Position numbers and translations under genes: made by a program. A DNA stretch of 57,767 bases from NCBI RefSeq assembly GCF_027706725.1, contig NZ_JAQFWQ010000040.1:1-57767 (forward strand), written 5' to 3'. This DNA comes from Nocardiopsis endophytica (lineage in GTDB: Bacteria > Actinomycetota > Actinomycetes > Streptosporangiales > Streptosporangiaceae). Below the pieces are notes generated by a model. That model saw nothing but the letters and a program-made list of their open reading frames with translations, made no database searches and was not told the origin of the DNA. Positions 3,694 to 40,649 of this stretch are shown here, piece by piece. Position 1 is the first letter of the stretch. Each line of letters opens with the position of its first letter.

Positions 3694-3740
3694 TGATCTC
3701 GGGGAAGTCGGGGGTGGACCGGACGCGATGAGCCCGACTA
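3694..3740. repeat. decayed copy of the GATCTCG hairpin element
   Basis: The left arm TGATCTCGGGGAAGTCGGG matches the left arm of the perfect copy at 31643-31712. The inner right arm (AGCCCGACT) is retained, but the outer right arm has been lost. It lies 18 bp downstream of the lipoprotein gene stop (minus strand), the same gene-3'-end position as the other four copies. Confidence 0.6.
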
Positions 3741-3758
3741 CACCGGTCGGCCGCCGGG

Positions 3759-4292
3759 TCACTTCACGCGGAAGCCGTCGCAGGAGATGAACGCGCCGTC
3801 CTCGGCGGACGACCAGACCACCGTGTAGGTGCCCTTCCCCGGGTCCGCGGCGACGAAGTCGCCCGGGAACTCCAGCTCGGCCCAGGAATCGCCGGAGGCC
3901 TGCGCCTCGGCGCCCCCGAGGGCGCCGTCCGGTCCGGCCACGTCGGCGCGGACCGCCAGGTCGGCCCCGCCCGCGGCGTCGCGCAGGCCGAGCGGGGCCG
4001 GGTCGCCGTCGAGGGGCTTGCGCGGGGCGGAGGTCTCCCACTCCCCGGGAACGGCGGTCGACGCGCGCGGCTCGCACGCGGCGGAGCCGGGGGCGAAGCG
4101 CATCTCGGACGGTGCGGGCTCCGGGGCGGCCGAGGCCTCGGCGGCGCGGTCGGCGGCGATCCGGGCCTCCAGCTCGGCGGTGTCCGGGCGGGGCGCCGCC
4201 CCGCACCCGGCGGCGGTCAGCGCGCACGCGGCGGCCAGGGCGGCCGCGGCGGTCCGGGGCGGGCGGTGGGCGTCACGGTGATCTGCGGGCAC
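3759..4292 (-). CDS. putative lipoprotein
   Basis: A 177-residue protein of unrecognised family. A basic N-terminus and hydrophobic stretch (about residues 15-28) lead to a lipobox LTAAGC, with the lipidated cysteine near residue 30. The mature part is Ala/Glu-rich and then forms a beta-type domain ending TYTVVWSSAEDGAFISCDGFRVK, with two further cysteines that could form a disulfide. A GTG start at 4292 gives a complete lipoprotein signal, so I prefer it over upstream codons. It lies between the exporter operon and hisN in the same orientation, with gaps that suggest independent transcription. Confidence 0.75.
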   Translation of the reverse strand: MPADHRDAHRPPRTAAAALAAACALTAAGCGAAPRPDTAELEARIAADRAAEASAAPEPAPSEMRFAPGSAACEPRASTAVPGEWETSAPRKPLDGDPAPLGLRDAAGGADLAVRADVAGPDGALGGAEAQASGDSWAELEFPGDFVAADPGKGTYTVVWSSAEDGAFISCDGFRVK

Positions 4293-4366
4293 GGACCGAA
4301 ATCTACTACGGAGTGTGTCCGAGCGATTGCGATCCGTTGAATCGGTGGGCGCGGCCCGGCCTGGGC

Positions 4367-5173
4367 TCAGACCGGGCGGACCGGCGTCGGCCCTCCGTTC
4401 AGCCAGGTCAGCACGCGGTCGTGCAGGGCGCCGTTGGTGCACACCAGGGCGCCCCCGTCGGCGAAGTTCTGCCCGCGCAGGTCGGTGGCGCGCCCCCCGG
4501 CCTCCTCCAGCAGGACCGGCAGCGGCGCGGCGTCCCACAGGGACAGCTCCGGCTCGGCGGCGACGTCCACCGCGCCCTCGGCGACCATCACGTGCGACCA
4601 GAAGTCGCCGTAGGCGCGGGTGCGCCACACCGAGCGGGTCAGCCCCAGGAACGCCTCCAGGCGCCCGTGCTCCTCCCACTCGGCCATGTCGGAGAAGGAG
4701 AGCGAGGCGTCCTCCAGCTCGGAGACCTTGGACACCCAGCAGCGGGTCGCCTTGGTCAGGCTGCGCCCGGTCCAGGTGCCCCCGCCGAGCGTGGCCCACC
4801 ACCGGCGGAACAGCGCCGGCGCCGAGATCAGGCCCACCACCGGCCGGTCGTGCTCCAGCAGCGCGATCATCGTGGCCCACACGGGGACGCCGCGGACGTA
4901 GTTCTTCGTGCCGTCGATGGGGTCGACCACCCACACGCGGTGGCTGTTGCCGGTCTTCCCGTACTCCTCGCCCACCACGGCGTCGCGGGGGCGCGCGCGG
5001 GACAGGACGCTGCGGACCGTCTCCTCCACCGCGCGGTCGGCCTCGGTCACGGGGGTCAGGTCCGGCTTGGTCTCCACCTGCAGATCCAGGGAACGGAAAT
5101 GCTGCAGAGAGATGTCGTCGGCCGCGTCCGCCAGGACGTGGGCCAGACGCAGATCATCGTCAAAGGACGCCAT
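4367..5173 (-). CDS. hisN: histidinol-phosphatase, inositol monophosphatase family
   Basis: A 268-residue Mg-dependent phosphatase of the IMPase fold. Metal and phosphate motifs are GEE (68-70), DPIDGTKN (84-91) and WDAAPL (213-218). These match the actinobacterial HisN branch, which converts L-histidinol phosphate to histidinol in histidine synthesis in the cytoplasm. The family also contains inositol phosphatases, so substrate assignment rests on the close HisN-like pattern (MASFDDDLRLAHVLADAAD start). It is separated by 126 bp from the divergent TetR gene. No other his genes are nearby, which is usual for this gene. Confidence 0.88.
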   Translation of the reverse strand: MASFDDDLRLAHVLADAADDISLQHFRSLDLQVETKPDLTPVTEADRAVEETVRSVLSRARPRDAVVGEEYGKTGNSHRVWVVDPIDGTKNYVRGVPVWATMIALLEHDRPVVGLISAPALFRRWWATLGGGTWTGRSLTKATRCWVSKVSELEDASLSFSDMAEWEEHGRLEAFLGLTRSVWRTRAYGDFWSHVMVAEGAVDVAAEPELSLWDAAPLPVLLEEAGGRATDLRGQNFADGGALVCTNGALHDRVLTWLNGGPTPVRPV

Positions 5174-5299
5174 GGCCGGTAACGCTACCGTCCCCGCACG
5201 CCCCGCGGCAGTCCGGCACCCCCGCGTACGGGGGATTCCCCGCCGAAGGGCACGGCCTGGGCCCCTCTTGCCGGGGGCCGGGGATGGCACCATTGCCCT

Positions 5300-5911
5300 A
5301 TGGCCTCCGAAGCATCCTCCCCCGCGGCACCACGGGCGCCGGGCGCCCCGCGCCAGGGCGACGTCCGCGAGCGGCTCCTCGACGCCGCCTACGCGGCCGT
5401 GGTCGCGGGCGGGTGGGCGCGCATGCGGATGGCCGACATCGCGGCGAACGCGGGCGTGTCCCGGCAGACGCTGTACAACGAGTTCGGCACCAAGGAGGGG
5501 CTGCTGCAGGCGGTGGTCATCCGGGAGGCCGACCGGTTCCTGGACCGCACCGAGGCGATCGTCTCCGGCCACCCGGGCGACCCGGCCGAGGCGGTCCGCG
5601 AGGCGGCGCTGTGGACGCTGCGCGCCTCGGCGGAGAACCCGCTGGTGCGGGCGGTGATCACCGGCGAGGGGGAGCTGCTGCCGGTGCTGACCACCCGCTC
5701 CCGGCCGCTGCACCTGGCGCTGCAGGAGCGGATGAACGCCTACCTGCGCCGCCACCACCCGCGCCTGGGGGAGCGGGGCGAGGTGCTGGTGGAGGTCTCC
5801 GCCCGGCTGATGGTGTCCTACGTGGTGTCGCCGACCGACCCCGAGGTGGCGGCCTCGCGCGTGGAGGCGGTGGCCCGCGCCCTGACCGGGCCGGTGCGCG
5901 AGAACGCCTGA
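5300..5911 (+). CDS. TetR/AcrR family regulator
   Basis: A 203-residue regulator with an N-terminal TetR helix-turn-helix (about residues 25-66). The recognition part is DIAANAGVSRQTLYNEFGTKEGLL. The rest is an all-helical ligand/dimerisation domain that I cannot assign to a ligand. It is divergent from hisN and 67 bp upstream of a HAD phosphatase on the same strand. Either neighbour could be a target, but no operator is obvious in the 126-bp divergent spacer. Confidence 0.9.
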   Translation: MASEASSPAAPRAPGAPRQGDVRERLLDAAYAAVVAGGWARMRMADIAANAGVSRQTLYNEFGTKEGLLQAVVIREADRFLDRTEAIVSGHPGDPAEAVREAALWTLRASAENPLVRAVITGEGELLPVLTTRSRPLHLALQERMNAYLRRHHPRLGERGEVLVEVSARLMVSYVVSPTDPEVAASRVEAVARALTGPVRENA

Positions 5912-5978
5912 GGCCGGCGGCCCTGTCCGGGCGGTGCGGCGGTTTCCCTTTTCTCCCGTTCGGGACGAGACTGGCAGG

Positions 5979-6692: not shown

Positions 6693-6757
6693 CGGGCGGC
6701 GGCGGGCGACCGGAAAAGCGGGTGACGGCCCGCGCGGCCTCTGCTTGCATAGGGGCC

Positions 6758-7315: not shown

Positions 7316-7355
7316 GGCGGGGAGCCTCCGGGCCGACTCCTCCGGGCCGCCGTGG

Positions 7356-29696: not shown

Positions 29697-30994
29697 CGGT
29701 CATGGGGACGGCCTCGGCGGCCTCCGCCGGGCGGGGCACGGTCCCGCCGCGCATCGACCACACCCGGATGTGGCTCATCGCCGGGGCGTGCGTGTGCGCA
29801 GCCGCCGCCCTGGTGTGGACGCTGGCCGAGGGGTTCGTCGAGCCGCACTCCGCCCTGGCCTTCGGGGTGCTCATCGCGGTCGGGGAGATCGCCCGCATCA
29901 CCCTGCCCGGTCACCGGGAGGTGGCGCCCATCGCCTCGGCCGGGGCCATCGGGTACGCGGTGCTGTCGGACGTGGGCGGCACCGTGGTGCACCACCCGGC
30001 CCAGCAGGTCGGCGCGGTGGTGGCGCTGGGCCTGGCCGTGGGCGAGCTGCCGCACCTGGCGGTGGGGCGCGGCCCGCGCTGGAGCGACCTGTCCCGCCGG
30101 TTCCTGGCCCCGGTGGCGGTGGCCGCGGTCTTCCGGCCCTTCGCCGACGTGCTCGCGCCGACCCCCGGCGACTGGGGCGTCGTGCTGGCGGTGATGGCCG
30201 GGCTGGTCATCGCCGCGTGGACGCTGGACGCCGCGCTCGCGGCGGCGATCCGCGCCGAGCGGCTGCGCACCCGCTTCACCGTGGCGCTGCGCGACGAGGT
30301 GCGCGCCCAGTTCGGGATCGGCATGGCCATCGGCGCCTCGGGCATCCTGATCACCCTGGCCACCACGGTGACCGGGCTGGTGGGGCTGCTGGTGTTCACC
30401 GCGCCGCTGCTGGTGACCCAGGTGGCGTTCCGCCGGTTCGCCGACATCCGGCTGACCTACCTGCAGACGGTGCGGGCGCTGTCCCGGGTGACCGAGGTGG
30501 GCGGCTACGTGGAGACCGGCCACTCGCGCCGGGTGAGCCGCCTGGCCTCCGCGGTCGGCTGCGAGCTGGGCATGCGCGAGTCGGAGCTGCGGGAGCTGGA
30601 GTACGCGGCGCTGATGCACGACATCGGCCAGCTCTCGCTGCGCGACCCGATCGCCAGCGGGGCCACCGTGCTGGCCTCCCCCCGCGAGCAGCGGCGCATC
30701 GCCGAGCTGGGCTCGGCGGTGATCCGCGAGACCGGGGTGCTGGACGGGGTGGCCGAGCTGGTGCGGCGCCAGTGCGAGGGCTGCCGCGGCGACGGCGGGG
30801 ACGGCCCGCCGCCGCTGGGGAGCAGGATCATCAAGGTCGCCAACGCCTTCGACGACCTGGTGGGCGACTCCGGCGACCCGGACCGCACCGAGGCCGTCCT
30901 GGAGCGGCTGCGCATGGACGCGGGCGAGGAGTACGACCCGGTGGTCGTCGAGGCCGCCTCCCGCGTCCTCACCCGCCCCGAGGCCCGCTGGTAG
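29693..30994 (+). CDS. membrane protein with degenerate HD domain
   Basis: A 433-residue paralogue-like partner of the upstream gene. Several membrane helices (about 26-245) are followed by an HD domain with MHDIGQL (HD at 309-310) and His277. The GYP signature HHExxDGxGYP is absent; instead VRRQCEGCRGDGGDG stands there, with a CxxC pair. It may bind rather than hydrolyse nucleotide, or bind a metal through the cysteines. GTG at 29693 overlaps the preceding stop (GTGA); an ATG at 29702 is an alternative. Confidence 0.85.
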   Translation: MTVMGTASAASAGRGTVPPRIDHTRMWLIAGACVCAAAALVWTLAEGFVEPHSALAFGVLIAVGEIARITLPGHREVAPIASAGAIGYAVLSDVGGTVVHHPAQQVGAVVALGLAVGELPHLAVGRGPRWSDLSRRFLAPVAVAAVFRPFADVLAPTPGDWGVVLAVMAGLVIAAWTLDAALAAAIRAERLRTRFTVALRDEVRAQFGIGMAIGASGILITLATTVTGLVGLLVFTAPLLVTQVAFRRFADIRLTYLQTVRALSRVTEVGGYVETGHSRRVSRLASAVGCELGMRESELRELEYAALMHDIGQLSLRDPIASGATVLASPREQRRIAELGSAVIRETGVLDGVAELVRRQCEGCRGDGGDGPPPLGSRIIKVANAFDDLVGDSGDPDRTEAVLERLRMDAGEEYDPVVVEAASRVLTRPEARW

Positions 30995-31016
30995 GGGCCT
31001 ACGCCCCCCCTGTGCC

Positions 31017-31079
31017 GATGATCTCGGGAGAATGGACGCTAAAACCGCGCTTGTAGGGGCGTTTTTCCCGAGATCAACG
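31017..31079. repeat. hairpin element, family copy 2
   Basis: A 63-bp imperfect inverted repeat between convergent genes. The arms are GATGATCTCGGGA (from 31017) and TCCCGAGATCAAC (to 31078), with one unpaired position. The interior GACGCTAAAACCG...GTAGGGGCG is the reverse complement of that in the copy at 35965-36028, so these two are the same element in opposite orientation. Probably a bidirectional terminator or a small non-coding element. Confidence 0.8.
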
Positions 31080-31098
31080 TGGGGCGCGCGGCCGGGGG

Positions 31099-31524
31099 TC
31101 AGTCTCCGGCGGAGGCGATGAAGCGCTCGCGGTCGACCACGACGCGCTCGACGGTGCCGCCCGCGACGGCGCGGCCGTCCGAGCCCTCGGATCCGGCCGG
31201 GTTCCGGTCGAGCTGGACCACGGCCACCTCGAACACCAGCCGCTTGCCGTCGGCCTCGGTCAGCACCGCGTCGGCGCGCACCCGGGCCCCGGCCGGGGTC
31301 GGGGCGGTGTGGCGCAGCTCCACCCGGGTGCCGACGGTCGTGCGGCCCGGCTCCAGGGCGCCCTCCAGGGCCGCCACGGTGGCCTCCTCGGCCAGGGCCA
31401 GCACCCGCGGGGTGCCGAGCACGGGCACGTCCCCGCTGCCCAGCGCGGCGGCGGTGTCGCCCGGTCCGACGGTCGTCTCCACGCGCCCGCGCGCTCCGGG
31501 GCGCGGCTCCGTGATGTCGCTCAT
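31099..31524 (-). CDS. thioesterase family protein (FlK-like hot-dog fold)
   Basis: A 141-residue hot-dog fold protein. GTPRVLALAEEATVAALEGALEPGRTTVGTRVELRHTAP and GKRLVFEVAVVQ match fluoroacetyl-CoA-thioesterase-like proteins, which hydrolyse acyl-CoA thioesters. The conserved Thr/Glu/His catalytic residues of FlK correspond to positions around T39, E47 and H73, but I cannot verify the alignment. Its C-terminus is convergent with the HD genes across the hairpin element. Confidence 0.8.
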   Translation of the reverse strand: MSDITEPRPGARGRVETTVGPGDTAAALGSGDVPVLGTPRVLALAEEATVAALEGALEPGRTTVGTRVELRHTAPTPAGARVRADAVLTEADGKRLVFEVAVVQLDRNPAGSEGSDGRAVAGGTVERVVVDRERFIASAGD

Positions 31525-31642
31525 GGCCTCCGAACCTACCGGGGGGGGGCGCCGGGCGCGGGACCGGCCGGACGAAACGGCCCCGCGCCCGGCGCGCCTC
31601 CGTCAGGGTTCCTTCCCCCTCCGGCGCCGCTGAGACCTCCAT

Positions 31643-31712
31643 CCCCGTTGATCTCGGGGAAGTCGGGCTTGAGCGAGCCCTCATAAGCCCGACTTCCCCG
31701 AGATCAACGGGG
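31643..31712. repeat. hairpin element, family copy 3 (perfect 28-bp arms)
   Basis: Bases 31643-31670 are the exact reverse complement of 31685-31712, a 28-bp stem around a 14-base loop. The arms begin CCCCGTTGATCTCGGGG and continue AAGTCGGGCTT. It lies 32 bp downstream of the minus-strand ThDP enzyme gene stop and is by far the longest perfect palindrome in the window. Confidence 0.9.
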
Positions 31713-31743
31713 GAAGGGCCGGGCCGGGGACCACTGGCAGGAC

Positions 31744-33405
31744 TTAGACGCCCATCGTCTTGCGCGGGTACACGTTGTCCGGGTCGGTGGCGATGTTGAC
31801 CATGTACGGCACCCCGGAGTCGAAGGCGCGGCGCAGCGCCGGGCCGATCTCCCCGGGGTCGGTCACCAGCTCACCGCCGCCGCCCAGCGCGCGCACGACC
31901 TCGTCGTAGCGGGTCTGCGGGGACAGCTCGGCGGCCACGTCGTAGCCGTAGAGCATCTGCATCGGCGCCTTCTCCAGGCCCCAGATGCCGTTGTTCCCGC
32001 ACACCATCACCACCGGGAGCCGGTGCCGGACCAGGGTGTCCACGTCCATCAGGGAGAACCCGGCGGCCCCGTCCCCGAACAGCGTCACCACCTGCGAGGA
32101 GGGCCGGGACAGGCGGGCGGCGATCGCGTAGCCCATGCCGGTGCCCAGGCAGCCGTAGGGGCCCGGGTCCATCCAGTTGCCGGGGCGCTTGGGCTCGATG
32201 TACTTGCCCGCGTAGGACACGAAGTCCCCGCCGTCGCCGATCACCACCGCGTCGTCGTCCAGGATCCGGTTCAGCTCGCCGTAGATGCGCGCCGGGTGGA
32301 TCGGGTCGCTCGTGCTGGCCAGCACCTCGGTGTCGGAGGAGGCGGCCTCCGCGGCGGCGCGGGAGATCCGCTCGGCCCACTCGGCGGCCTCGGGGCGCGG
32401 CTTGGCCTCGGCGGCGATGCCGCGCAGCAGCGCGCCCAGGTCACCGGAGGCGGAGGCGGCGAGGGTGAGGTGCTCCGCGACCTGCCCGGCAGAGTCGGCC
32501 AGGTGGACCACCTTCGCCAGGGGCGCCCCGTCCTTGCCGCCGAACAGCCCGTGCCCCAGCCGGAAGTCGAGCGGGGTGCCGGCCACGACCACCAGGTCGG
32601 CGCCGCCGAACGCCGCCCCGCGCGCGCGGTTGGCCAGCAGCCGGTGCCCGCCGGGCAGCAGCCCGCGCCCCTGGCCGTTGGTGACGACCGGGACGCCCAG
32701 CTCCTCGGCGGCCTCCAGGGCGGCCGCCTCGGCGCCGTCCAGCCACACGTCGCCGCCGAGCACCAGGACCGGGCGCTCGGCCTCCGACAGCAGCCGCGCC
32801 ACCCGCGTCACCTCCCCGGGGTCGGGGGAGCGGTCGGGCGCCGGCGCCCCGCCCTCCAGCACGACCTCGGCCTGGTCGTACAGCTTGTCCATGGGGACGT
32901 CCAGGAAGACCGGGCCGCGGTGGGCGCCGTTGGCGGCGGTGAACGCCTCGTCCACGGCCGAGGCGATGGCGCCGGTCTCGTGCACGGTCCACGCGCGCTT
33001 GGTGACGGTCTCGAAGAGCGGCGGCTGGTCGAGCTCCTGCAGCAGGCCCTGGCCCCACCGGGCGTCCGGGGCCCGCCCGCCGACCAGCACCAGGGGTGAT
33101 CCGCTGAACCGGGCGGTGGCCACCCCGCTGACCGCGTTGGTGACCCCCGGCCCGGCGGTGACCACGGCCAGGCCGGCGCGCCGGGTGAGCTTGCCGACCC
33201 CTTCGGCGGCGAACACGGCGGTCTGCTCGTGCCGCACGTCCAGCAGCCGCATCACGGGTTCGGGCTTGACCGCCGCGTCGTAGAGGGGGAACACGTGCCC
33301 GCCGCTGAGCGTGAACATGGTGTCCACGCCGTGGTGGCGGGCGGCGGCGACGGCGTGCGCGCCGCCGTGTCCGCCGACGGGGCCGGTGAAGGGGGCCGTT
33401 TCCAT
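31744..33405 (-). CDS. thiamine-diphosphate enzyme, acetolactate synthase-like
   Basis: A 553-residue ThDP enzyme. The activating glutamate lies in RHEQTAVFAAEG (about 58-69), and the cofactor motif is GDGAAGFSLMDVDTLVRHRLPVVMVCGNN. The three-domain order (Pyr, central, PP) is complete. The sequence is closer to acetolactate synthase/2-hydroxyacyl-CoA lyase-type proteins than to the biosynthetic IlvB with its regulatory partner, and no ilvN follows. The substrate is therefore open. A GntR regulator gene lies upstream on the same strand. Confidence 0.85.
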   Translation of the reverse strand: METAPFTGPVGGHGGAHAVAAARHHGVDTMFTLSGGHVFPLYDAAVKPEPVMRLLDVRHEQTAVFAAEGVGKLTRRAGLAVVTAGPGVTNAVSGVATARFSGSPLVLVGGRAPDARWGQGLLQELDQPPLFETVTKRAWTVHETGAIASAVDEAFTAANGAHRGPVFLDVPMDKLYDQAEVVLEGGAPAPDRSPDPGEVTRVARLLSEAERPVLVLGGDVWLDGAEAAALEAAEELGVPVVTNGQGRGLLPGGHRLLANRARGAAFGGADLVVVAGTPLDFRLGHGLFGGKDGAPLAKVVHLADSAGQVAEHLTLAASASGDLGALLRGIAAEAKPRPEAAEWAERISRAAAEAASSDTEVLASTSDPIHPARIYGELNRILDDDAVVIGDGGDFVSYAGKYIEPKRPGNWMDPGPYGCLGTGMGYAIAARLSRPSSQVVTLFGDGAAGFSLMDVDTLVRHRLPVVMVCGNNGIWGLEKAPMQMLYGYDVAAELSPQTRYDEVVRALGGGGELVTDPGEIGPALRRAFDSGVPYMVNIATDPDNVYPRKTMGV

Positions 33406-33456
33406 GGGGAGCCTCGCTGTCCTGGTGCTCGCTGGGGTCGGGAGAACGCGAAACTT

Positions 33457-33466
33457 ACTCGCGAGT
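33457..33466. promoter_or_regulatory. ACTCGCGAGT palindrome before the ThDP enzyme gene
   Basis: A perfect 10-bp palindrome lies 52-61 bp before the start of the ThDP enzyme gene, inside an AT-rich stretch next to TTTGACT on the minus strand. It is a candidate operator for the neighbouring GntR protein or another regulator. Confidence 0.4.
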
Positions 33467-33549
33467 CAAATAGCACCGTAGTGATTCCGGTCGCACCGGG
33501 ACAAGAGGGCGCGGCGGGCGGCCCGCCGGATGGTCCGCCGGGCGCCCGG

Positions 33550-34293
33550 TCACCACTCCTCGGGCGGGCGCAGCCGGGTGACGAACTTGTACCGGTCGCC
33601 CCGGTACAGCGAGCGCACCCACTCCACCGGGTTGCCCTCGTTGTCGAAGCTGTGCTGGCAGTGCAGCACCAGCGGAAGGCCCACGTCCACGCCGAGCAGC
33701 CGCGCCTCGTCCGGGGTGGCCAGCACCGTCTCGATGGTCGCCTCGGCCTCGGCCAGGCGCACGTCGTAGGCGCTGGCCAGCGCCTCGTACAGGGAGGCGT
33801 ACCGGTCGAGCTGGCGGCGCAGGCCCGGGAAGCGGCGGGCGGCCAGGTGCGCGGTCTCCACCGCCATCGGCTCGCCGTTGGCCAGGCGCAGCCGCTCGAT
33901 GCGCAGCACCCGCCCGCCGGAGCGGATCGCCAGCAGCTCGGCCAGCTGCTCATCGGCGTTGATGTAGCTGACGTCCAGGATGCGGGTGGCCGGGTGCAGG
34001 CCGTGGGCGCGCATCTCCTGCGTGTAGCTCTGCAGCCGGAGCATCTGGGCGACCTTCGGCTTGGCGACGAACGTCCCCTTGCCCTGGATGCGCAGCAGCC
34101 GCCCCTCGACCACCATCTCGGTCAGCGCCTGGCGCACCGTGGTGCGCGAGGTGCCGAACTGCGCGGCCAGCGCGCGCTCGGGCGGCACCGGGTTGCCCGC
34201 GGGCATGGTCTCGATCAGCTCCAAGAGCTGTTTCTTGACCTGGTAGTACTTGGGGACCCGGGGGTCATCCCGGACCGTTCGCTGACCCGTCAC
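33550..34293 (-). CDS. GntR/HutC family regulator (DasR-like)
   Basis: A 247-residue regulator with an N-terminal GntR winged helix (about 14-80; [38 protein letters not shown]) and a C-terminal UTRA ligand domain (about 95-245; [33 protein letters not shown]...). This is the architecture of DasR, which senses amino-sugar phosphates, but the ligand is uncertain. The GTG has GGAGGAG just before it. It is divergent from pdtaS, with palindromic sites between them. Confidence 0.88.
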
Positions 34294-34335
34294 GTCCGTC
34301 TCCTCCACCCGCCGTCGCGGTGCGCCTGGCCCCAT

Positions 34336-34353
34336 TGGTGTGGACCACTGGTC
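34336..34353. promoter_or_regulatory. overlapping TGGT/ACCA and GACCA/TGGTC palindromes
   Basis: TGGT-GTGG-ACCA (34336-34347) overlaps GACCA-C-TGGTC (34343-34353), 43-60 bp before the GntR start and 46-63 bp before pdtaS. The half-sites are those of HutC/DasR-type boxes (TGGTC...GACCA), so this is likely the autoregulatory operator of the adjacent GntR protein. Confidence 0.5.
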
Positions 34354-34398
34354 GAGTTCGTCCAACGAGTATGCCCGCACTCGTGGGATGATCTGTGT

Positions 34399-35949
34399 GT
34401 GCCTCACCTCAGCGACCTCATCCGACGCTATACGTCGCTCAAGACCGCGGACCTGGAGTGGCTGCACTCCCTGGTCTCGGACTGGCAGCTGCTGGCCGAC
34501 CTGTCCTTCGCCGACCTGGTGCTCTGGGTCCGCCTGCGGGACGGCTCCGGCTGGGTCGCCGTCTCCCAGATGCGCCCCACCACCGGCCCCACCGCCTTCC
34601 AGGACGACCTGGTGGAGGCGGTGCTCCCGGACGAGGTGGGCGGCGTGGCCGACGAGGGCGAGCGCATCCGGATGGCCTCCCGCCTGGCGCTGATCGACCG
34701 CGCCTGGTCCGAGGGGCGGATCTGCCGCGAGGGCGACCCGGACTGGTCGGGCGGGGTCCCGGTGCGCGAGGAGACCATCCCGGTGCGCCGCCAGGGCAAG
34801 CTCATCGGGGTGATCCAGCGCAGCACCAACCTCAGCTCCGCGCGCACCCCCAGCCGCCTGGAGCTGACCTACCTGCAGAGCGCCAGCGACCTGGCGCAGA
34901 TGATCGCCGAGGGCGCCTTCCCCTTCAGCGACCAGGGGCCGCTCATGGTGCGCTCGCCGCGGGTCGGCGACGGCCTGCTCCGCCTCGACCGGGACGGGGA
35001 GGTCGTCTACGCCAGCCCCAACGCGCTGTCGGCCTACCGCAGGCTGGGGCTCACCGCCGACCTGGTGGGGGCCCGCCTGGCCCGCACCACGCTGGACCTG
35101 GCCGCCGCCGGGGACGCCCGGGACGAGTCGCTCACCTGGACCGCCGGGGGCCGGGTGCCGCAGGAGTCGGAGGTGGAGGCGCGCGGCTCCACCGTGCAGC
35201 TGCGCGCCATCCCGCTGATCACCGAGGGGGTGCGCATCGGCGCCCTGGTGATGGTGCGGGACGTGACCGAGCTGCGCCGCCGCGAGCGCGAGCTGATGAC
35301 CAAGGACGCCACCATCCGGGAGATCCACCACCGGGTGAAGAACAACCTGCAGACGGTGGCCGCGCTGCTGCGGCTGCAGTCCCGCCGCCTCGACAGCACC
35401 GAGGGGCAGGCCGCCCTGGACGAGGCGGTGCGCAGGGTCGGCTCGATCGCGATCGTGCACGAGATGCTCTCGCACACCCCCGACGAGATCGTGGATTTCG
35501 ACGATATCGCCGACCGGGTGATCGAGATGGCCGCCGAGGTCTCCTCGACCGAGGCGCACGTGACCCCGCACCGGGTGGGCCACTTCGGGCTGCTGTCGGC
35601 GCTGGTGGCCACCCCGCTGTCGATGGTGCTGACCGAGCTGGTGCAGAACGCGGTGGAGCACGGGCTGGGGTACGGTCCGGGGTCGATCGAGGTGCGGGTG
35701 CGGCGCGAGGACGCCCCGCCCGGGGCCGAGGAGGCCTCCGGCCGGGTGTTCATCGAGGTCACCGACGACGGCGGGGGGCTGCCCGCCGACTTCGACATCG
35801 AGGGCAGCAACAGCCTGGGGCTGCAGATCGTGCGCACCCTGGTGGTGGCCGAGCTCGGCGGCCACCTGGAGATCAAGCCGCGCGACGACGGGGGCACGGC
35901 GGTGGCGATCGAGCTGCCGGTCGACGCGGCCGTCGAACAGACGCCCTGA
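34399..35949 (+). CDS. pdtaS: sensor histidine kinase PdtaS-like
   Basis: A 516-residue cytosolic histidine kinase. The N-terminus (about 15-165) is a GAF-type sensor, followed by a PAS-like domain (about 190-295). The HisKA_2 phosphoacceptor is in [23 protein letters not shown] (about 310-332). The ATPase region carries [12 protein letters not shown] (N box) and [10 protein letters not shown] (G box). This matches the PdtaS family, which signals to the RNA-binding antiterminator PdtaR. No pdtaR lies in the window. The neighbour whiB1 is also beside pdtaS in Mycobacterium tuberculosis. A GTG start without a ribosome site suggests a leaderless message. Confidence 0.9.
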
Positions 35950-35964
35950 CCCGGCCGCCCCCCG

Positions 35965-36028
35965 CGTTGATCTCGGGGAAAACGCCCCTACCGCGCCGGT
36001 TTTAGCGTCCTTTCCCCCGAGATCAACG
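35965..36028. repeat. hairpin element, family copy 4
   Basis: Outer arms CGTTGATCTCGGGG (35965-35978) and CCCCGAGATCAACG (36015-36028) are perfect complements. The interior folds further (AAA/TTT, ACGC/GCGT, ACCG-CGC-CGGT). The element lies 16 bp after the pdtaS stop and is convergent with whiB1. The interior is the reverse complement of the one at 31017-31079. Confidence 0.85.
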
Positions 36029-36218
36029 AGCGGCCGGCGGTGCGGGGGCGGGCCCATGCCCGAAAGCGGCACCCCCGGTGCGGCTTCGCGGGGGCGGGTG
36101 CCAGTATGGCCTCAGGACGCCGGAGGGCGAGGGCCGACCGGTGTCCGGGGACACGACCCGGCACGACCCGGGGCGCACGCCGGTGCACCCCGGTGGTGAG
36201 GGAGGGAGGCGGAGGGGA

Positions 36219-36473
36219 CTAGACTCCGGCGCGGACCGCGGGGCGGACCCGGCGACGGCGGAGCGAGCGGCGCTCCTCCTCGCTCATCCCGCCCCAGACG
36301 CCGCCGTCCTGGCCGGTCTCCAGCGCCCACTGCAGGCAGGCGCTCGACACCGGGCAGGCGGCGCACACGGACTTGGCCTCTTCGATCTGGATCAGCGCGG
36401 GGCCGGAGTCACCGATGGGGAAGAACAGTTCCGGATCTTCGTCACGGCAGGCGGCGTGGTGGCGCCAGTCCAT
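36219..36473 (-). CDS. whiB1: WhiB-family iron-sulfur regulator (WhiB1/WblE type)
   Basis: An 84-residue WhiB protein. The cluster cysteines are in HHAACRDEDPELFFPIG (first) and CAACPVSSAC (C-x2-C-x5-C). The GVWGG turn and a basic C-terminal tail (RRSLRRRRVRP) follow. The MDWRHHAACRDED start matches WblE/WhiB1, an essential nitric-oxide-sensitive [4Fe-4S] regulator. The ATG at 36473 has GAGGAG nine bases upstream; a TTG at 36482 would add MIR. Convergent with pdtaS, as in mycobacteria. Confidence 0.93.
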   Translation of the reverse strand: MDWRHHAACRDEDPELFFPIGDSGPALIQIEEAKSVCAACPVSSACLQWALETGQDGGVWGGMSEEERRSLRRRRVRPAVRAGV

Positions 36474-36514
36474 GCGGATCAACTCCTCACAGCGAGGCGT
36501 GCGGGGGCGTGCGG

Positions 36515-36534
36515 CTCGTGAACGCGTTCACGAG
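36515..36534. promoter_or_regulatory. 20-bp CRP-like palindrome upstream of whiB1
   Basis: CTCGTGAACGCGTTCACGAG is a perfect 20-bp palindrome with the CRP-type core CGTGA-N6-TCACG. It is centred about 51 bp before the whiB1 start. The CRP homologue of M. tuberculosis (Rv3676) is known to bind the whiB1 promoter at related sites. The rest of the 320-bp gap 36474-36793 holds no gene. Confidence 0.7.
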
Positions 36535-36793
36535 ATCGGCGATATGGGCGCGGGGCACACCCTTGTCGCCCCGGTCCGTAGGGCACGCGCCCGACGGGAC
36601 AGTGCTTCGGTACGATCCTCGGCCACGGGTAGCGGTACTGCCCGTTCCGGCCGCGGAACCGTCCGTTTTACTCGCCCGTAACGTGCGGCGACATTTTGAG
36701 CCTGTCAGGGTTGAACCACCCGCGCAAGACCGCCCGGGGGCGATCGGCGCAGGCCGAGGTGTCGTGTGCGTCACAAGGGGCTTGCGCGTGCCC

Positions 36794-37729
36794 TCAAACG
36801 ATGATTCGTAATGCCTTCGGTACGGAGTGGAGATCCATCCGATCCCGCGTGCCGAGATACTCCCCGTCGATCTGGAACGGGCGCGGGTGCTCCGAGGAGA
36901 TCGTCAGCGACGGCACATCGTGCCACGTGGTATAGCCGCGCCCCATGGGCGGGACCCCCGACGGGGAGAGCATCTTCCCCAGCAGCCGCGCCGTCGTCGC
37001 CGGGTTCAGCGTGCTCATCCCGAAGGCGTCCAGCCCCAGCCGGAACCGCGACCGCGGCGTCGGCTGCACCGGAACCGTCCCGGCGAAGGTCCACGGGGTG
37101 GTGTTGGTGACCAGCGCGAAGTGCAGCCCCGAGACCGGGCCCCGCCCCGGCGTGCGCACCTGGAGCGAGGGGTCCCGGGTCTCGCCGCGCAGGAACTTCT
37201 GCAGCGCCACCCCGGTGTACAGCGCGGGGGAGGCGCGCCGCCCCCGCCGCCGGCGCCGCTCGACCTCGTGGACGACGTCGGCGTCCCAGCCGAACCCGGC
37301 GCAGAAGGTGAAGTAGCGGTCGTCGCGCCCGGAGGAGATCCGCCCCAGCCCCACCTCGCGGGAGGAGCCCGACCGCAGCGCCTCCAGCACCGCGCCGGTG
37401 GCCTCGACGGGGTCGTTGGGCATGCCGAGCGCGCGGATGAAGACGTTGGCGCTGCCGCCGGGCAGCGCGGCGTAGCTCGGCCGGTCCAGGCCCTCGGGGG
37501 TGCGCAGCAGGCCGTTGACGACCTCGTTCACCGTGCCGTCCCCGCCCAGGCTGATCACCAGGTCGAATCCCTCGCCGGCGGCGTCGCGGGCCATCTCCCC
37601 GGCGTGGTCGCGGTATTCGGTCTGGGCCACGTGCAGCTCCACGTGGCGGGCGATCGCGCCGACGATGACGTCCCGCGAGCGCGGCGTGGTGGTGGTCGCC
37701 TGCGGGTTGACGATGAAGAGCGCGCGCAC
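36794..37729 (-). CDS. diacylglycerol kinase family lipid kinase
   Basis: A 311-residue lipid kinase of the DgkB/YegS type. The nucleotide motif is SLGGDGTVNEVVNGL (about 72-86), and LPGGSANVFIRALGMPND follows. The C-terminal beta sandwich ends DGEYLGTRDRMDLH. It probably phosphorylates diacylglycerol or a related lipid. The GTG at 37729 follows TACACT by six bases, a good -10 box, so the message is probably leaderless. Divergent from a small membrane protein gene. Confidence 0.88.
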   Translation of the reverse strand: MRALFIVNPQATTTTPRSRDVIVGAIARHVELHVAQTEYRDHAGEMARDAAGEGFDLVISLGGDGTVNEVVNGLLRTPEGLDRPSYAALPGGSANVFIRALGMPNDPVEATGAVLEALRSGSSREVGLGRISSGRDDRYFTFCAGFGWDADVVHEVERRRRRGRRASPALYTGVALQKFLRGETRDPSLQVRTPGRGPVSGLHFALVTNTTPWTFAGTVPVQPTPRSRFRLGLDAFGMSTLNPATTARLLGKMLSPSGVPPMGRGYTTWHDVPSLTISSEHPRPFQIDGEYLGTRDRMDLHSVPKALRIIV

Positions 37730-37735
37730 GCCGAC

Positions 37736-37741
37736 AGTGTA
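37736..37741 (-). promoter_or_regulatory. -10 box for a leaderless diacylglycerol kinase message
   Basis: TACACT on the minus strand ends six bases before the GTG start. This spacing places transcription start at or next to the start codon, a common actinobacterial arrangement. Confidence 0.55.
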
Positions 37742-37830
37742 GCGAGGCCTTGCGGTGCCGGGGTTCCCGGGCTCGCGGGGGCCGTATGGGCCCGCACCGG
37801 GGTCCACGGGGATGCCGCCGCGGGCCGTTC

Positions 37831-37902
37831 CCTGAGCCGAACGTCGAGCCGTCCGTCGGGCCGTCCCCTGAGCCGAACGTCGAGCCGACCGTCGGGTCGT
37901 CC
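37831..37902. repeat. tandem direct repeat, two 36-bp units
   Basis: Units starting at 37831 and 37867 are near-identical (about four differences in 36 positions; each starts CCTGAGCCGAACGTCGAGCC). They sit in the divergent spacer between the kinase and the membrane protein, upstream of both. The unit could be a minisatellite or carry a duplicated operator. Confidence 0.7.
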
Positions 37903-37972
37903 GGGGCCGGTCCCCGGACCAGCCCGGACCGGCCCCGGAGAGGAGCGTGCCGGGCGGCCGATAGTGTGGAAC

Positions 37973-38383
37973 GTGTACAACCGCCCGGTCACCGTTCTGC
38001 TCGCCGCCGCCCTCCAGGCACTCGTCGCCTTGGTCGTGGTCTATGAGAGCGGCACCCTCGTCTACCGCACCGTCCTCGGAGACGTCTCCGACACGTCCTT
38101 CGCCCTGCCGCTGGCCGTCTTCGGATTCGCCGTGGCCGGGGCGCTCGGGTACGTCGCCTGGGGCCTGGTGATGCTGCGCCCCTGGGCGCGCACGCCGGTG
38201 GTGCTCACCCAGATCTTCATCCTGGTCGTCGCCTACTCCATGTACGAGGCCGACCGGATGTCCGTCAGCGTGGGCATGGTCGCCGTGGCGGTCGCCGCGA
38301 TCGGCCTGGTGCTGGCGCCCTCCACGACCGCCGTGCTCTTCCCCGAGGAGGCCGGCGGCCGCGGTGCCGAGAGCGGCGGTTGA
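37973..38383 (+). CDS. small integral membrane protein
   Basis: A 136-residue protein with four predicted membrane helices (about 5-25, 43-65, 70-90 and 95-120) and a short cytoplasmic tail. No family is recognised. The GTG at 37973 follows TAGTGT by five bases, so it may be leaderless; a GTG at 37964 is an alternative. It converges with sigF across a strong palindrome. Confidence 0.75.
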   Translation: MYNRPVTVLLAAALQALVALVVVYESGTLVYRTVLGDVSDTSFALPLAVFGFAVAGALGYVAWGLVMLRPWARTPVVLTQIFILVVAYSMYEADRMSVSVGMVAVAVAAIGLVLAPSTTAVLFPEEAGGRGAESGG

Positions 38384-38465
38384 GACGCGGTCGGGACGGA
38401 GCGCCGCCCGTGGAGCGCGCGCGGCGGCGTGCTGCGGCGCGCGGCCGAGGCCCCGGGCACGGAAC

Positions 38466-38493
38466 GGGCCCCGCGCCGTACGGCGCGGGGCCC
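38466..38493. terminator. 28-bp perfect palindrome, bidirectional terminator
   Basis: Bases 38466-38479 are the exact complement of 38480-38493, all GC except the centre. It lies between the convergent membrane protein and sigF genes, so it can terminate both. Two copies of TGCGTGCCTC follow. Confidence 0.85.
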
Positions 38494-38530
38494 ATCTGCG
38501 TGCCTCTGCGTGCCTCTGAGGGCCGACCCC

Positions 38531-39334
38531 TCACTCGTCGGTGGTCAGCGCCTGGCGGAGCTGCGCGAGCGTGCGGGCCAGCAGGCGCGACACGTGCATC
38601 TGCGAGATGCCCAGCTCCTGGGCGATCTGCGACTGGGTCATGTTGCCGAAGAAGCGCAGCAGCAGGATGCGCTTCTCGCGCGGCGGAAGCTGCTCCAGCA
38701 GCGGCTTGAGCGACTCGCGGTACTCCACGCCCTCCAGCGAGTCGTCCACGATGCCGAGCGAGTCGGCGACGGCCGGGGCGTCCTCGTCCCCGCTGTCGGG
38801 CGCGTCGAGGGAGACCGTGGAGTAGGCGTTGGCCGACTCCAGGCCCTCCAGCACCTCCTCCTCGGTCATGCCGAGGTGCTCGGCCAGCTCGTGCACGGTG
38901 GGCGCGCGGCCCTCCCGCTGCGACAGGTCGCTGACCGCCTTGGTCAGGGAGAGCTTGAGCTCCTGCAGGCGGCGCGGCACCCGCACCGCCCAGCCCTTGT
39001 CGCGGAAGTGGCGCTTGATCTCGCCGACGATGGTCGGCGTCGCGTAGGTGGAGAACTCCACCCCGCGGTCCAGGTCGAACCGGTCGATCGACTTGATCAG
39101 CCCGATGGTGGCGACCTGGGTCAGGTCGTCGAGCCACTCCCCGCGGTTGCGGAAGCGCCGGGCGAGGTACTCCACGAGCGGCAGGTGCAGCTCCACGAGC
39201 TCGTCGCGGATCCGCTGGCGCTCCGGGGAGTCCTCGGGAAGCTCGCTCAGGCGCTCGAACAACTCTCGTGCGCGGGCCCGGTCCGGCACCGCGTGCTCCG
39301 TCTTCGCCGTCAGAGCGGGCCCCCTCTCGCTCAC
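38531..39334 (-). CDS. sigF: stress/sporulation sigma factor SigF (SigB family)
   Basis: A 267-residue sigma-70 family protein of the SigB/SigF/SigG group. It has region 2 (LHLPLVEYLARRF...DLTQVATIGLIKSIDRFDLDRGVEFSTYATPTIVGEIKRHFRDK), region 3 (LTKAVSDLSQREGRAPTVHELAEHLGM) and region 4 (LPPREKRILLLRFFGNMTQSQIAQELGISQMHVSRLLARTLAQLR). The GTG overlaps the stop of the upstream kinase-like gene, so the two are coupled. Confidence 0.93.
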   Translation of the reverse strand: MSERGPALTAKTEHAVPDRARARELFERLSELPEDSPERQRIRDELVELHLPLVEYLARRFRNRGEWLDDLTQVATIGLIKSIDRFDLDRGVEFSTYATPTIVGEIKRHFRDKGWAVRVPRRLQELKLSLTKAVSDLSQREGRAPTVHELAEHLGMTEEEVLEGLESANAYSTVSLDAPDSGDEDAPAVADSLGIVDDSLEGVEYRESLKPLLEQLPPREKRILLLRFFGNMTQSQIAQELGISQMHVSRLLARTLAQLRQALTTDE

Positions 39335-39756
39335 GCCGTCTCCACCGCGCCGCGCCGTTTGTGCAGGACGATGGAGACGCGGTCGTCGGGCCCGGCCGCG
39401 GTGTCGACCTCCCCGGCCAGGGCGGAGAGCACCGTCCAGGCGAAGGTGTCGCGGGCCGGGAGCCGGCCGTCGGCGGTCAGCACCGAGACGCTGATCCGCA
39501 TGCCGTCGCCGGTGAGTTCGAATTCGCAGGTCAGATCGGTGCCGGGGAGGGCCTGGGCGAGCAGCATCGCGCAGGCCTCGTCGACCCCGATGCGCAGGTC
39601 CTCGATCTCGTCGAGGGTGAAGTCCAGGCGGGCCGCCAGGCCGGCCGTCGCGGTGCGCAGCACGGACAGGTAGGCGCTGTCGGCCGGCATCTTCACCGTG
39701 ACGGCGTCGCGTACGTCCATGGCGCCCGAGACGGGCGCGGCGGTTTCTTCGGTCAC
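39331..39756 (-). CDS. rsbW: anti-sigma factor, RsbW/SpoIIAB-like kinase
   Basis: A 141-residue GHKL ATPase of the RsbW family. The N box is IEDLRIGVDEACAMLL (about 70-85), and the core ends with PDDRVSIVLHKRR. Such proteins bind and phosphorylate their antagonist and sequester SigF. The GTG at 39756 is preceded by GGAGGAGG; a later ATG (MDVRDAV) is an alternative. No anti-anti-sigma gene is nearby. The next 298 bp (39757-40054) contain no gene. Confidence 0.9.
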   Translation of the reverse strand: MTEETAAPVSGAMDVRDAVTVKMPADSAYLSVLRTATAGLAARLDFTLDEIEDLRIGVDEACAMLLAQALPGTDLTCEFELTGDGMRISVSVLTADGRLPARDTFAWTVLSALAGEVDTAAGPDDRVSIVLHKRRGAVETA

Positions 39757-40054
39757 GTCCCTCCTCCGGGAAGCGAGTGTGCCGCTTGAGTGCAATCTAT
39801 CGTGTTTCCCGCCGGGGTGGCGGCACGCGGTCGGGTCCGTGTCCGCCGGGCGGTCCGGTCGAACCGGGGCGAACCCGGACGGATCGGCGGTCGTTAAGGG
39901 TGTGGGCCCCCACACGCGGCGGAGGATCCCGGGGTCGGCCGCGCATTCGTCCGGGGCCCATCCGGCGCCGCGGATTCCGGGCCCCTTCCGGCCCCGTCCC
40001 GCACGCCCCTACGGCCCCGCCCGGTGCGGCCCGGCCGGCCGGGCCCACCCGGCC

Positions 40055-40528
40055 CTAGCCCTTGCCGCCCAGGGCGTCCAAGGCCGCTCCGTCGAGCCGG
40101 AAGACGGTCCACTCGTCCATCGGCTTCGCGCCGAGGGAGCGGTAGAACTCGATGGAGGGCGTGTTCCAGTCCAGCACCGACCACTCCAGGCGCCGGTAGC
40201 CGCGCTCGGTGCACACCCGGGCCAGTTCGGTCAGCAGGGCCTTGCCCAGGCCGCGGCCGCGCATCTCCGGGCGGACGTACAGGTCCTCCAGGTAGATGCC
40301 GTGGCGGCCCGTCCAGGTGGAGAAGTTCAGGAACCACAGGGCGAACCCGACGGCCTCCCCGTCCTCCTCGGCGATGTGCGCGTAGGCCGCCGCGCCCTCG
40401 CCGAAGAGCGCGCGCTCGATGTCCGCCTCGGTCGCCTCGACGGCGTCCGGCTCGCGCTCGTACTCGGCGAGCTCGTGGATCATCTTCAGGATGGCCGGGA
40501 CGTCGTCCGGGCGCGCGCGGCGGATCAT
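40055..40528 (-). CDS. GNAT family N-acetyltransferase
   Basis: A 157-residue acetyltransferase. The acetyl-CoA motif is LEDLYVRPEMRGRGLGKALLTELA (about 83-106), with WSVLDWNTPSIEFYRSLGAKPMDEW as motif B. It is close to the diamine/thialysine acetyltransferase (SSAT) branch, which acts on small polyamines or thialysine, but the acceptor is not certain. The ATG at 40528 has GAGGAG immediately upstream; a GTG at 40543 is also possible. Confidence 0.85.
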   Translation of the reverse strand: MIRRARPDDVPAILKMIHELAEYEREPDAVEATEADIERALFGEGAAAYAHIAEEDGEAVGFALWFLNFSTWTGRHGIYLEDLYVRPEMRGRGLGKALLTELARVCTERGYRRLEWSVLDWNTPSIEFYRSLGAKPMDEWTVFRLDGAALDALGGKG

Positions 40529-40579
40529 GGGACTCCTCGTCACTGGAAGGGGGGACCCACGCTACCTCCCAGCCGAGAC

Positions 40580-40649
40580 CCCCGATGATCTCGACGGAAG
40601 TGCTGTCGTACTCGCCGGTATGACGGCATCCTCGTCGAGATCATCGGGG
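40580..40649. repeat. hairpin element, family copy 5, with compensatory changes
   Basis: Arms CCCCGATGATCTCGAC (40580-40595) and GTCGAGATCATCGGGG (40634-40649) are exact complements. They differ from the other copies at T-to-A and GG-to-AC positions, and the opposite arm changes to match. The interior (TGCTGTCGTA...TATGACGGCA) also pairs with two G.U. It lies 10 bp after the minus-strand ABC ATPase stop. Confidence 0.85.

Follow-up and report, generated by a model that had tools for sequence, protein, structure and literature searches.

MITEs are small, non-autonomous intergenic elements with inverted terminal repeats. Integron attC sites lie just past stop codons, with short conserved outer boxes (RYYYAAC...GTTRRRY) enclosing an interior that is variable but paired. 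Ordinary terminators are not known to form a dispersed family sharing arms and a fixed length. REP/BIME elements of the GTAG and CGTC superfamilies are described as short, high-copy palindromes in convergent or unidirectional gaps near gene 3′ ends; in two diagrammed species most conv-REPs lie <20 bp from the 3′ ends, and the end of an element can supply the stop codon of the neighboring ORF (PMC3733652). They occur as singletons, dimers and clusters. According to the same account, palindromic 3′-end repeats have been described chiefly in Proteobacteria, one superfamily is accompanied by RAYT transposases, and the CGTC superfamily apparently has no dedicated transposase (PMC3733652). The words actinobacteria, Streptomyces and Nocardiopsis do not occur in that paper. 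In Streptomyces clavuligerus, 3′-end mapping has described I-shaped terminators, which have a very stable hairpin and lack a U-tract (PMC8269248).

Hairpins in the window

The window, the whole stretch of 57,767 nt of Nocardiopsis endophytica DNA that was analyzed, had been annotated as carrying five hairpins at gene ends. Four are confirmed by position and fold as complete 64-nt cores and the fifth is decayed, as claimed; no strand is assigned to any of them. The copy at 31016..31079 has a type A interior and lies between convergent genes, with one stop codon from each placed 21 and 19 nt from the core. The type B copy at 31646..31709 has a near-perfect stem and follows the minus-strand gene 31744-33405, 34 nt beyond its stop codon. 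A second type A copy, at 35965..36028, is 3′ of the plus-strand gene 34399-35949, whose stop codon is 15 nt from the core, and the type C copy at 40583..40646, with arms CGATGATCTCGAC, follows the minus-strand gene 40660-41487 at a distance of 13 nt from its stop. The decayed type B copy (3690..3748) comes after the minus-strand gene 3759-4292, ~10 nt beyond its stop. Two copies had been placed between convergent genes; this is correct for the copy at 31016, and for that at 35965 it depends on whether the short called ORF 36219-36482 is a genuine gene.

Compared with shuffled sequences, the complete copies fold with z scores of -4.6 (31016), -12.2 (31646), -7.1 (35965) and -8.5 (40583), and the decayed copy with -0.16. 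A stretch of ~300 bp around the decayed copy recurs elsewhere in the genome, and it is therefore a remnant of a larger composite repeat (3450..3750), which also encloses one arm of a D-hairpin at 3617. The arm pair GTTGATCTCGGGG/CCCCGAGATCAAC, described as common to the five, is exact in two of them; the 31016 copy has GATGATCTCGGGA on one side in place of the standard arm, and the 40583 copy has the variant GATGATCTCGACG/CGTCGAGATCATC.

A genome-wide family of fixed length

The unit comprises 64 nt. Its outer arms read CGNYGATCTCG, and the interior, which is self-complementary, comes in several types. The pattern GATCTCG-N42-CGAGATC has 374 exact copies in the source genome (G000, of the Nocardiopsis group), a family larger than the first-pass annotation had described, and its reversed control has none. 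GTTGATCTCGGGG occurs 118 + 110 times, and its reversed pattern not at all. Within 586 kb of this genome, 126 of 128 facing half-site pairs spaced by 20-90 are at an offset of 49, and five other half-sites taken as controls gave 0-7 pairs each with no spacing peak. Since reversed patterns score zero and other half-sites give no peak, the hairpins of the window are not a product of chance. A single motif of the DNA-uptake type is rejected because solo half-sites are scarce (21 of 289 within 717 kb); by eye these are mostly coding matches, contig ends and decayed copies.

Pairing was analyzed over 200 distinct copies, from which the pairing filter removed none. In these, 82.2% of cells are paired. 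Sliding the register by 1-3 gives 36-46%, and shuffling right halves between copies gives 74.5% (maximum 76.3%). The 21 pairs of the interior alone are formed in 74.5% against 63.7% for the control, the loops having been cut by eye before loops and interior pairs were counted. Averaged over genera, pairs 1, 2, 3 and 4 from the ends form in 95%, 100%, 78% and 84%, respectively. Between the best-paired representatives of six genera just 4-24 of 38 interior positions are alike, yet 27-32 of 32 pairs form. In other genera the arms, length and pairing are kept while interiors are partly or wholly different; in genera known only through the N42 pattern (G046, G060, G076 and G014) the conservation of GATCTCG and length is in part a product of the search, because this pattern fixes both arms and spacing. 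Free spacing was allowed in G000 and in G025, which belongs to another genus. For G025, any spacing of 20-120 was accepted provided at least 62% of the stem was paired, and in 300 contiguous kb, selected for the listed copies it contains, the standard spacing is found in 12 of 13 half-site pairs. Five of these 12 copies are newly found.

Perfect pairing of the flanks outside the unit over at least 4 bases is seen in 10.8% of copies and, with shuffled partners, in 4.2% (maximum 9.9% in 300 shuffles), an excess that is not clear within single genomes. This is a weak hint that the repeat inserts into loops of pre-existing hairpins. The G005 site corresponding to the 31016 copy is a GC hairpin, by eye one case that fits such an insertion.

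Position relative to genes

Genes were identified with a home-made codon-score caller, which leaves start positions unreliable and short genes in doubt. Training was on G000, or on G025 itself for the 300-kb test, and the caller was used on the other genomes too. In G000, 125 copies (about a third of the 374) were analyzed in detail, and none lies inside a called gene. Ten copies at locus edges were dropped before positions were counted; the 115 with both neighbors comprise 48 convergent, 62 tandem and 5 divergent settings. A gene 3′ end lies within 50 nt of 58 of the 115, where random placement gives a mean of 18.5 and a maximum of 30 in 500 draws. The link to gene 3′ ends, named at the outset as one of the points on which the annotation could fail, is sustained. 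Of gaps of at least 64 nt, 39/63 convergent, 44/178 tandem and 4/83 divergent hold a copy, and only the comparison between types is meaningful because the stretches were chosen around copies. Of the 62 copies in tandem gaps, 53 lie closer to the gene 3′ end.

A called stop lies no more than 400 nt from 67 of the 74 isolated copies, at a median distance of 14 nt for type A, 25.5 nt for type B, 13 nt for type C and 34 nt for three untyped copies. In 8 of the 125 the copy supplies the gene's own stop, as a TGA in the arm. The same placement is seen in the 300 kb of G025, where 9/37 convergent, 3/117 tandem and 0/46 divergent gaps hold a copy and 11 of 12 copies are within 30 nt of a stop. The preference is weaker in six further genomes (6 convergent, 13 tandem and 2 divergent; n = 21).

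The stem is not followed by a U-tract, T making up 10-18% of the 20 nt downstream, and a terminator scan of 30900-41000 listed none of the four complete copies. The repeat is thus not a canonical intrinsic terminator. In forming a stable hairpin shortly past the stop codon it nevertheless agrees with the I-shaped class. The 3′ windows of genes fold with mean energies of -38.8 kcal/mol with the element, -38.2 without it and -32.0 when shuffled; 68% of those with the element and 55% of those without reach -35 kcal/mol or lower. Since element-free windows fold nearly as strongly, the element is not needed for a gene-end hairpin. At the gathering score Rfam identifies only a tRNA in the window, and in three further loci (L260, L285 and L278) the matches at copies are all below that score and mostly to miRNA models.

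Distribution and turnover

The family was found by the N42 search in 12 of 345 genomes, perhaps 13, distributed over six genera of one family and possibly a seventh. It is thus not confined to a single species. The possible seventh genus is represented by a lone match in G027 that forms 14 of 21 interior pairs. Other lone matches form 1-8, matches outside the family 3-10, and family copies 8-21 (median 14), and so from its sequence the G027 match may be a member. Copy number across three relatives is 374, 133 and 13. In G014 there are three known copies and no others in 94 kb chosen around them.

Of 17 G000 copies with an anchored site in the close relative G005, 10 correspond to sites with no element, four to the same type, two to another type (one of these uncertain) and one to a decayed hairpin; one chance match (C49:1905) was dropped from the table. 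Nine of the ten empty sites have flanks with 90-96% identity and one has flanks with 78-85%; three of the ten rest on loose anchors. Copies therefore come and go. Within the window, the site of the 31016 copy lacks the element in two close relatives, and that of the 31646 copy lacks it in G005, where the anchor is loose. The 40583 copy has an orthologue in G005, and its G001 counterpart is a 64-nt hairpin with diverged arms and 24 of 32 pairs. The 35965 copy too has an orthologue in G005, whose loop matches better when inverted (8/12 against 2/12). Target-site duplications had been proposed as a check; no clean one was seen at the empty sites read in relatives, where the flanks have also changed.

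Search for a mover

A search of eight carriers gave no RAYT transposase, and a RAYT origin is rejected for these, since the matches are tnpB-associated, fragmentary or absent. G000 has one Y1_Tnp gene, an IS605-type tnpA beside tnpB, with no repeat within ~1.5 kb. There are none over threshold in G002 and G004, short fragments in G001 and G005, and matches with no repeat within ~1.5 kb in G003, G025 and G079; the four other carriers (G014, G046, G060 and G076) were outside this search. In an all-against-all comparison of 1587 called proteins from the loci analyzed, we inspected the 25 clusters of widest spread and the 15 with the most copies. None of these reads as a transposase recurring beside copies, so they give no support to a recurring neighbor gene as the mover. 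By eye, the clusters include one large one of ABC transporter ATPases, one helix-turn-helix regulator and many same-locus orthologues. No parent transposon with the same ends was found in the loci analyzed. A phage origin is rejected, TTGATCTCG-N42-CGAGATCAA having no match in viral_contigs.

A probable role at gene ends and its alternatives

Copy number, fixed spacing, pairing, location and presence or absence at orthologous sites are established at the level of sequence. The outer ends and length are fixed while the middle is rewritten yet still folds, as in a spreading repeat that probably marks transcript ends. We consider it reasonably probable that this is a REP-like, non-autonomous 64-nt repeat, spread genome-wide, which serves as a bidirectional 3′-end hairpin, with template switching and selection restoring its pairing. 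A 3′-end role fits because copies sit right after stops and between convergent genes, and mobility fits because relatives have empty sites and unequal copy numbers. Thus of the options first offered, a terminator or attenuator family or else a mobile element, terminator-like and mobile properties both find support and nothing was seen in favor of an attenuator. Counting against the favored reading are the missing U-tract, the strong folding of gene ends that lack the element, the clustered copies away from called gene ends, the weaker preference in six further genomes, and the lack of any matching transposase or target-site duplication in the searches made.

Transcribed from either side, the unit would form a stable hairpin that could define or protect the mRNA 3′ end of the preceding gene or gene pair, as a bidirectional terminator or a block to 3′-exonucleases. 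A putative trans-acting enzyme would recognize the conserved arms and hairpin and make new copies. Template switching is reported to homogenize the arms of inverted repeats and to flip the spacer between them (PMC8604942); it is also reported to give rise to hairpins and preserve them (PMC8794818). Switching from arm to arm, with selection for the hairpin, would renew pairing in a presumably fast-changing interior, keeping length and pairing while the sequence changes. Much more tentatively, a factor other than Y1/RAYT may read the CGNYGATCTCG foot together with the fixed-length hairpin, both spreading the repeat and exploiting it at gene ends, although we hold this rather doubtful. If true, the repeat would be a mobile, interchangeable, bidirectional gene-end cassette, with an interior that is free so long as the fold length is the same.

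The repeat might instead be purely selfish, MITE- or REP-like, surviving where it is least harmful and without host function. Tolerance alone can give its absence from called genes and near-absence from divergent gaps; element-free gene ends fold nearly as strongly, and copy number ranges from 13 to 374 between close relatives. Moreover, 51 of the 125 copies are clustered, with a neighboring copy ≤400 bp away, and for 42 of the 51 no gene 3′ end was called in the nearest 100 nt. Yet tolerance fails to account for the clustering of isolated copies at ~35 nt or less from a stop, or for the constancy of arms and length across genera despite replaced interiors. Compensated arm changes at a decaying G005 site (C4:124703) also argue against it, although template switching could yield these too. 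We think a solely selfish repeat unlikely.

A site acting as DNA would have CGNYGATCTCG arms 49 bp apart bound by protein, as duplex or cruciform, where convergent transcription meets. The binder could be a nucleoid protein, topoisomerase or recombinase, with interior pairing a consequence of template switching and no role in RNA. The arms and spacing are indeed the most constant features and the interior sequence is largely free, the preference for convergent gaps is strong in G000 and G025, and E. coli REPs are reported as gyrase targets (PMC3733652). However, a duplex site needs no paired interior, and pairing there exceeds both slid and shuffled controls. Placement directly past the stop, tandem gaps included, is better suited to a transcript, and neither the Y1_Tnp search nor the recurring neighbors gave a candidate protein. 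We judge this quite improbable. That the copies are immobile, inherited terminators of the lineage kept alike by gene conversion is very improbable indeed: some sites are common to species (4/17 of the same type) and all four combinations of type-A half-arms are found, an outcome expected of conversion or template switching, but the element is missing from 10 of the 17 orthologous sites, and two relatives lack a 156-bp A-B doublet as a single block.

On the favored reading, a spreading repeat that probably marks transcript ends, this is an actinobacterial family of palindromic gene-end repeats with several hundred copies, strict length, a replaced interior and no RAYT in the carriers searched. 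It offers a natural experiment, with hundreds of sequences having a common foot, length and fold, and with close relatives in which sites are either occupied or vacant. With it one can test how these repeats spread, whether hairpins of locked length set the 3′ ends of mRNAs in GC-rich bacteria, and the relative contributions of template switching and selection to hairpin upkeep.

Comparison with known systems

No named family matching the 64-nt repeat was found in the literature searched, and none was known to the first-pass annotation. Like attC, it lies directly after stops, with conserved outer boxes and a paired, variable interior. It differs in being scattered outside cassette arrays and in its often near-perfect stems, and its boxes read GTT...AAC; with the order thus reversed relative to the attC definition, an integron attC site is rejected. 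With I-shaped terminators it shares a very stable hairpin without a U-tract, and unlike ordinary terminators it is dispersed, with shared arms and fixed length. It resembles MITEs in being small and intergenic with inverted ends, but its interiors differ between copies and yet pair, no clean target-site duplication was seen at the empty sites read, and no parent transposon was found in the loci analyzed. REPs are 20-40 bp long with an unpaired GTAG or CGTC tag, and in the GTAG class a RAYT gene is flanked by the repeat; here the length is 64 nt, both ends are paired (CG...CG), and no such gene was found in the eight carriers searched. Also unlike REPs, the length is fixed and the arms are kept while the interior is replaced, and the host is actinobacterial. 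By definition, therefore, it is not a REP (length, no tag, no RAYT found). It is REP-like: a high-copy repeat at gene ends in convergent or tandem gaps, a location less marked in the six further genomes (2/21 divergent), occurring singly or in clusters and able to provide a stop codon.

The element and its copies in the window

Within the window there are four complete copies of a 64-nt palindrome, at 31016-31079, 31646-31709, 35965-36028 and 40583-40646, each of which folds far better than its shuffles. Outer arms CGNYGATCTCG enclose a self-complementary interior of type A, B or C. The first-pass annotation listed five hairpins sharing a GATCTCG core. All five are located, but the fifth, at about 3690-3748, is a decayed copy that folds no better than shuffles. 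Their closeness to gene 3' ends, put at about 35 bp or less, is borne out, with stop codons 13-34 nt from the complete copies and about 10 nt from the decayed one. The window also contains a 36-nt tandem repeat (37821-37904; two nearly identical units plus a partial third) and the 3' part of a tRNA gene at 1-52, cut by the window start.

Further copies are abundant genome-wide. The pattern GATCTCG-N42-CGAGATC (N42) has 374 matches in the same genome (G000) against 0 for the control, while GTTGATCTCGGGG has 118 + 110 matches and its reversed form 0. In 585,633 bp of G000 stretches, offset 49, the spacing that gives the 64-nt unit, is found in 126 of the 128 facing half-site pairs; five other half-sites gave 0-7 pairs there, with no spacing peak. 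The 125 distinct copies read comprise 65 of type A, 40 of B and 20 of C, although stricter interior typing leaves five without a type. Fifty-one lie less than 400 bp from another copy, and we list 17 A-B doublets, with A and B often 28 nt apart and type C and a further hairpin, D, nearby. Among the first 100 matches listed, an arm lies at most 102 bases from the start of G000 contigs C2, C10, C13, C16, C17, C18, C19, C24, C35 and C38. The repeats probably break the assembly, and copy number may therefore be undercounted.

Pairing and conservation

Seven arm letters are preset by the N42 search, and conservation was judged beyond them. Most copies retain the outer CG, with G-C at pair 2 in 217 of 221; each of the four Watson-Crick types is found at pair 3, and Watson-Crick pairing at pairs 12 and 13 holds in 220 of 221. 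In the best-paired representative copies from six genera, 27-32 of 32 pairs form; between genera, 18-22 of the 24 outer positions match, as do 4-24 of the 38 interior ones (22-24 among g1, g7 and g21; 4-17 in other genus pairs). Across 200 distinct copies, pairing reaches 82.2% of cells, compared with 36-46% in slid registers and 74.5% when right halves are shuffled between copies; for the 21 interior pairs alone the values are 74.5% and 63.7% with shuffled halves. The high value for shuffled halves comes from the arms and types that copies have in common.

Position relative to genes

None of the 125 copies lies inside a called gene. Where both neighbors are known (115 copies), 48 copies occupy convergent gaps, 62 tandem and 5 divergent ones, and 53 of the 62 tandem copies lie nearer the 3' end. 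A called stop lies at most 400 nt from 67 of 74 isolated copies, at median distances of 14 (A), 25.5 (B) and 13 nt (C), with 34 nt for three untyped copies; 42 of 51 clustered copies have no called 3' end inside 100 nt. Eight of the 125 themselves provide the stop codon of the gene (TGA in the arm). At C4:17531 a TAG ends the gene in relatives, and here, as judged by eye, the frame runs three codons further to a stop in one arm of an A-B doublet inserted there. Loop orientation follows the gene by no strong rule (A 17 versus 27, B 10 versus 8, C 3 versus 5, the remainder undecided).

Gain, loss and change at orthologous sites

We compared 23 G000 copies on four contigs with the same-genus relative G005, finding an anchored orthologous site for 17. 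Ten of these lack the element in G005 (three on loose anchors). A copy of matching type is seen at four sites, a different type at two, one of them uncertain, and a decayed hairpin at one. Two of the ten absent copies form one 156-bp doublet, which G005 and a second relative, G001, both lack in its entirety. The decayed hairpin, at C4:124703, is by eye altered on both sides of three arm pairs and keeps 23 of 32 pairs; for the window copy at 40583, the G001 counterpart is still a hairpin of 64 nt, with 24 of 32 pairs, but its arms have diverged. With loops cut by eye, two of the three orthologous A/A pairs give a better loop match after inversion (8/12 versus 2, and 9 versus 5), and the third does not (4 versus 8). 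The type-A half-arms GACGCTA and GCCCCTA are seen in all four combinations. Two adjoining sites at L125:13816-15133 are type A in G000 and type B at matching places in G005 (L231), in a comparison with a close match on one flank per site; this difference is interior exchange or repeated insertion. Template switching at inverted repeats is reported to give arm homogenization and spacer inversion (PMC8604942; PMC8794818). Compensated changes alone are therefore not proof of selection on RNA.

The first-pass annotation offered a small non-autonomous mobile element as one reading. No recurring transposase-like gene lies beside copies in the loci examined. The eight carriers searched have IS605-type Y1 transposases, fragments of them or none, with no repeats alongside; the sole Y1_Tnp match of G000 belongs to a divergent IS605-type pair at L009:103-1917 (tnpA, 155 aa; tnpB-like, 446 aa). 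Viral contigs gave 0 matches to the repeat pattern.

Several clustered copies lie inside composite islands, of which three profiled span about 880-1140 bp. The larger composite repeat is seen at L128:7870-8720, L146:15700-16750 and L155:2550-3690, and a remnant occupies window 3450-3750. In L128 it is bounded by two oppositely oriented units of about 220 bp, which enclose hairpins A, D and C. Hairpin D, which lies inside the islands (L128:8353-8417; also window 3617), has arms GCATCC[TC]GCGTCGT / ACGACGC[AG]GGATGC, with 8 arm matches in G000 loci. When L128 and L146 were used as queries, G001 and G005 yielded 175-229 matches per genome; most of the listed ones fall in the composite-repeat stretch, partly in tandem. 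The composite repeat may be a mobile unit in its own right.

Distribution in other genomes

The N42 pattern has matches in 23 of 345 genomes of the order. Judged from the first places listed per genome, copies are palindromic in 12: six of the same genus (374, 133, 71, 27, 18 and 13 copies) and, in other genera, G025 (150), G079 (119), G014 (24), G046 (7), G060 (3) and G076 (2). The other 11 have a single match each, with 1-8 of 21 interior pairs in ten and 14 of 21 in G027, which may be a family member. Among 394 genomes of the class, those outside the bacterial family have 0-2 matches each, with 3-10 of 21 interior pairs compared with 8-21 in copies from the family, where the median is 14. 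When arms GATCTCGGGG were allowed any gap of 22-50, 36 of 42 listed Nocardiopsis matches span 56 nt, the remaining six spanning 44, 55, 55, 57, 57 and 58. G000, G005 and G001, whose copy numbers are 374, 133 and 13, show 92-97% identity in their best pieces of the window region; either the repeat expanded recently in one lineage or its arms decayed in another. In a metagenome-assembled genome labeled Legionella sp. 2055-AUS-E there are eight 64-67 nt hairpins with GATCTCGGGG arms (L075, L081, L086, L087, L091, L094, L103 and L120), AT-rich interiors and similar flanks of 39-43% GC. This is another palindromic repeat, similar in its arms alone.

In 300 contiguous kb of G025, allowing any spacing of 20-120, offset 49 occurs in 12 of 13 paired half-sites. 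Among gaps of at least 64 nt, a copy is present in 9 of the 37 that are convergent, in 3 of the 117 tandem ones and in 0 of the 46 divergent ones, and 11 of 12 copies have a stop no more than 30 nt away. The 22 copies read in G025 and G079 include 15 in convergent gaps and none in divergent gaps, and in one convergent gene pair both stops lie inside the two arms of one copy. The location rule is weaker in six more genomes (two of the same genus, four of other genera), where 21 copies divide into 6 convergent, 13 tandem and 2 divergent.

Likely role

Position, two-way use and stop-codon overlap fit a putative bidirectional 3'-end hairpin, in line with the terminator side of the terminator/attenuator reading. 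No U-tract follows the stem, which argues against a classical terminator. This is not fatal, since stable hairpins lacking a U-tract occur at many of the 3' ends mapped in Streptomyces clavuligerus (353 of 535 highly structured ends; PMC8269248). Folding at gene ends that lack a copy is almost as strong as at those with one, and the copies may thus substitute for older hairpins instead of adding a function.

Relation to known repeats

The annotation knew of no named family to which these hairpins belong, and we found no description in the literature searched, where most subscription papers are missing. REP sequences, in the account of Di Nocera and colleagues (PMC3733652), are defined by length, tag and RAYT in ways that the present family does not share. 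Yet on the same account the family behaves alike: both occupy convergent and unidirectional gaps, lie close to 3' ends and supply stop codons from the repeat ends.
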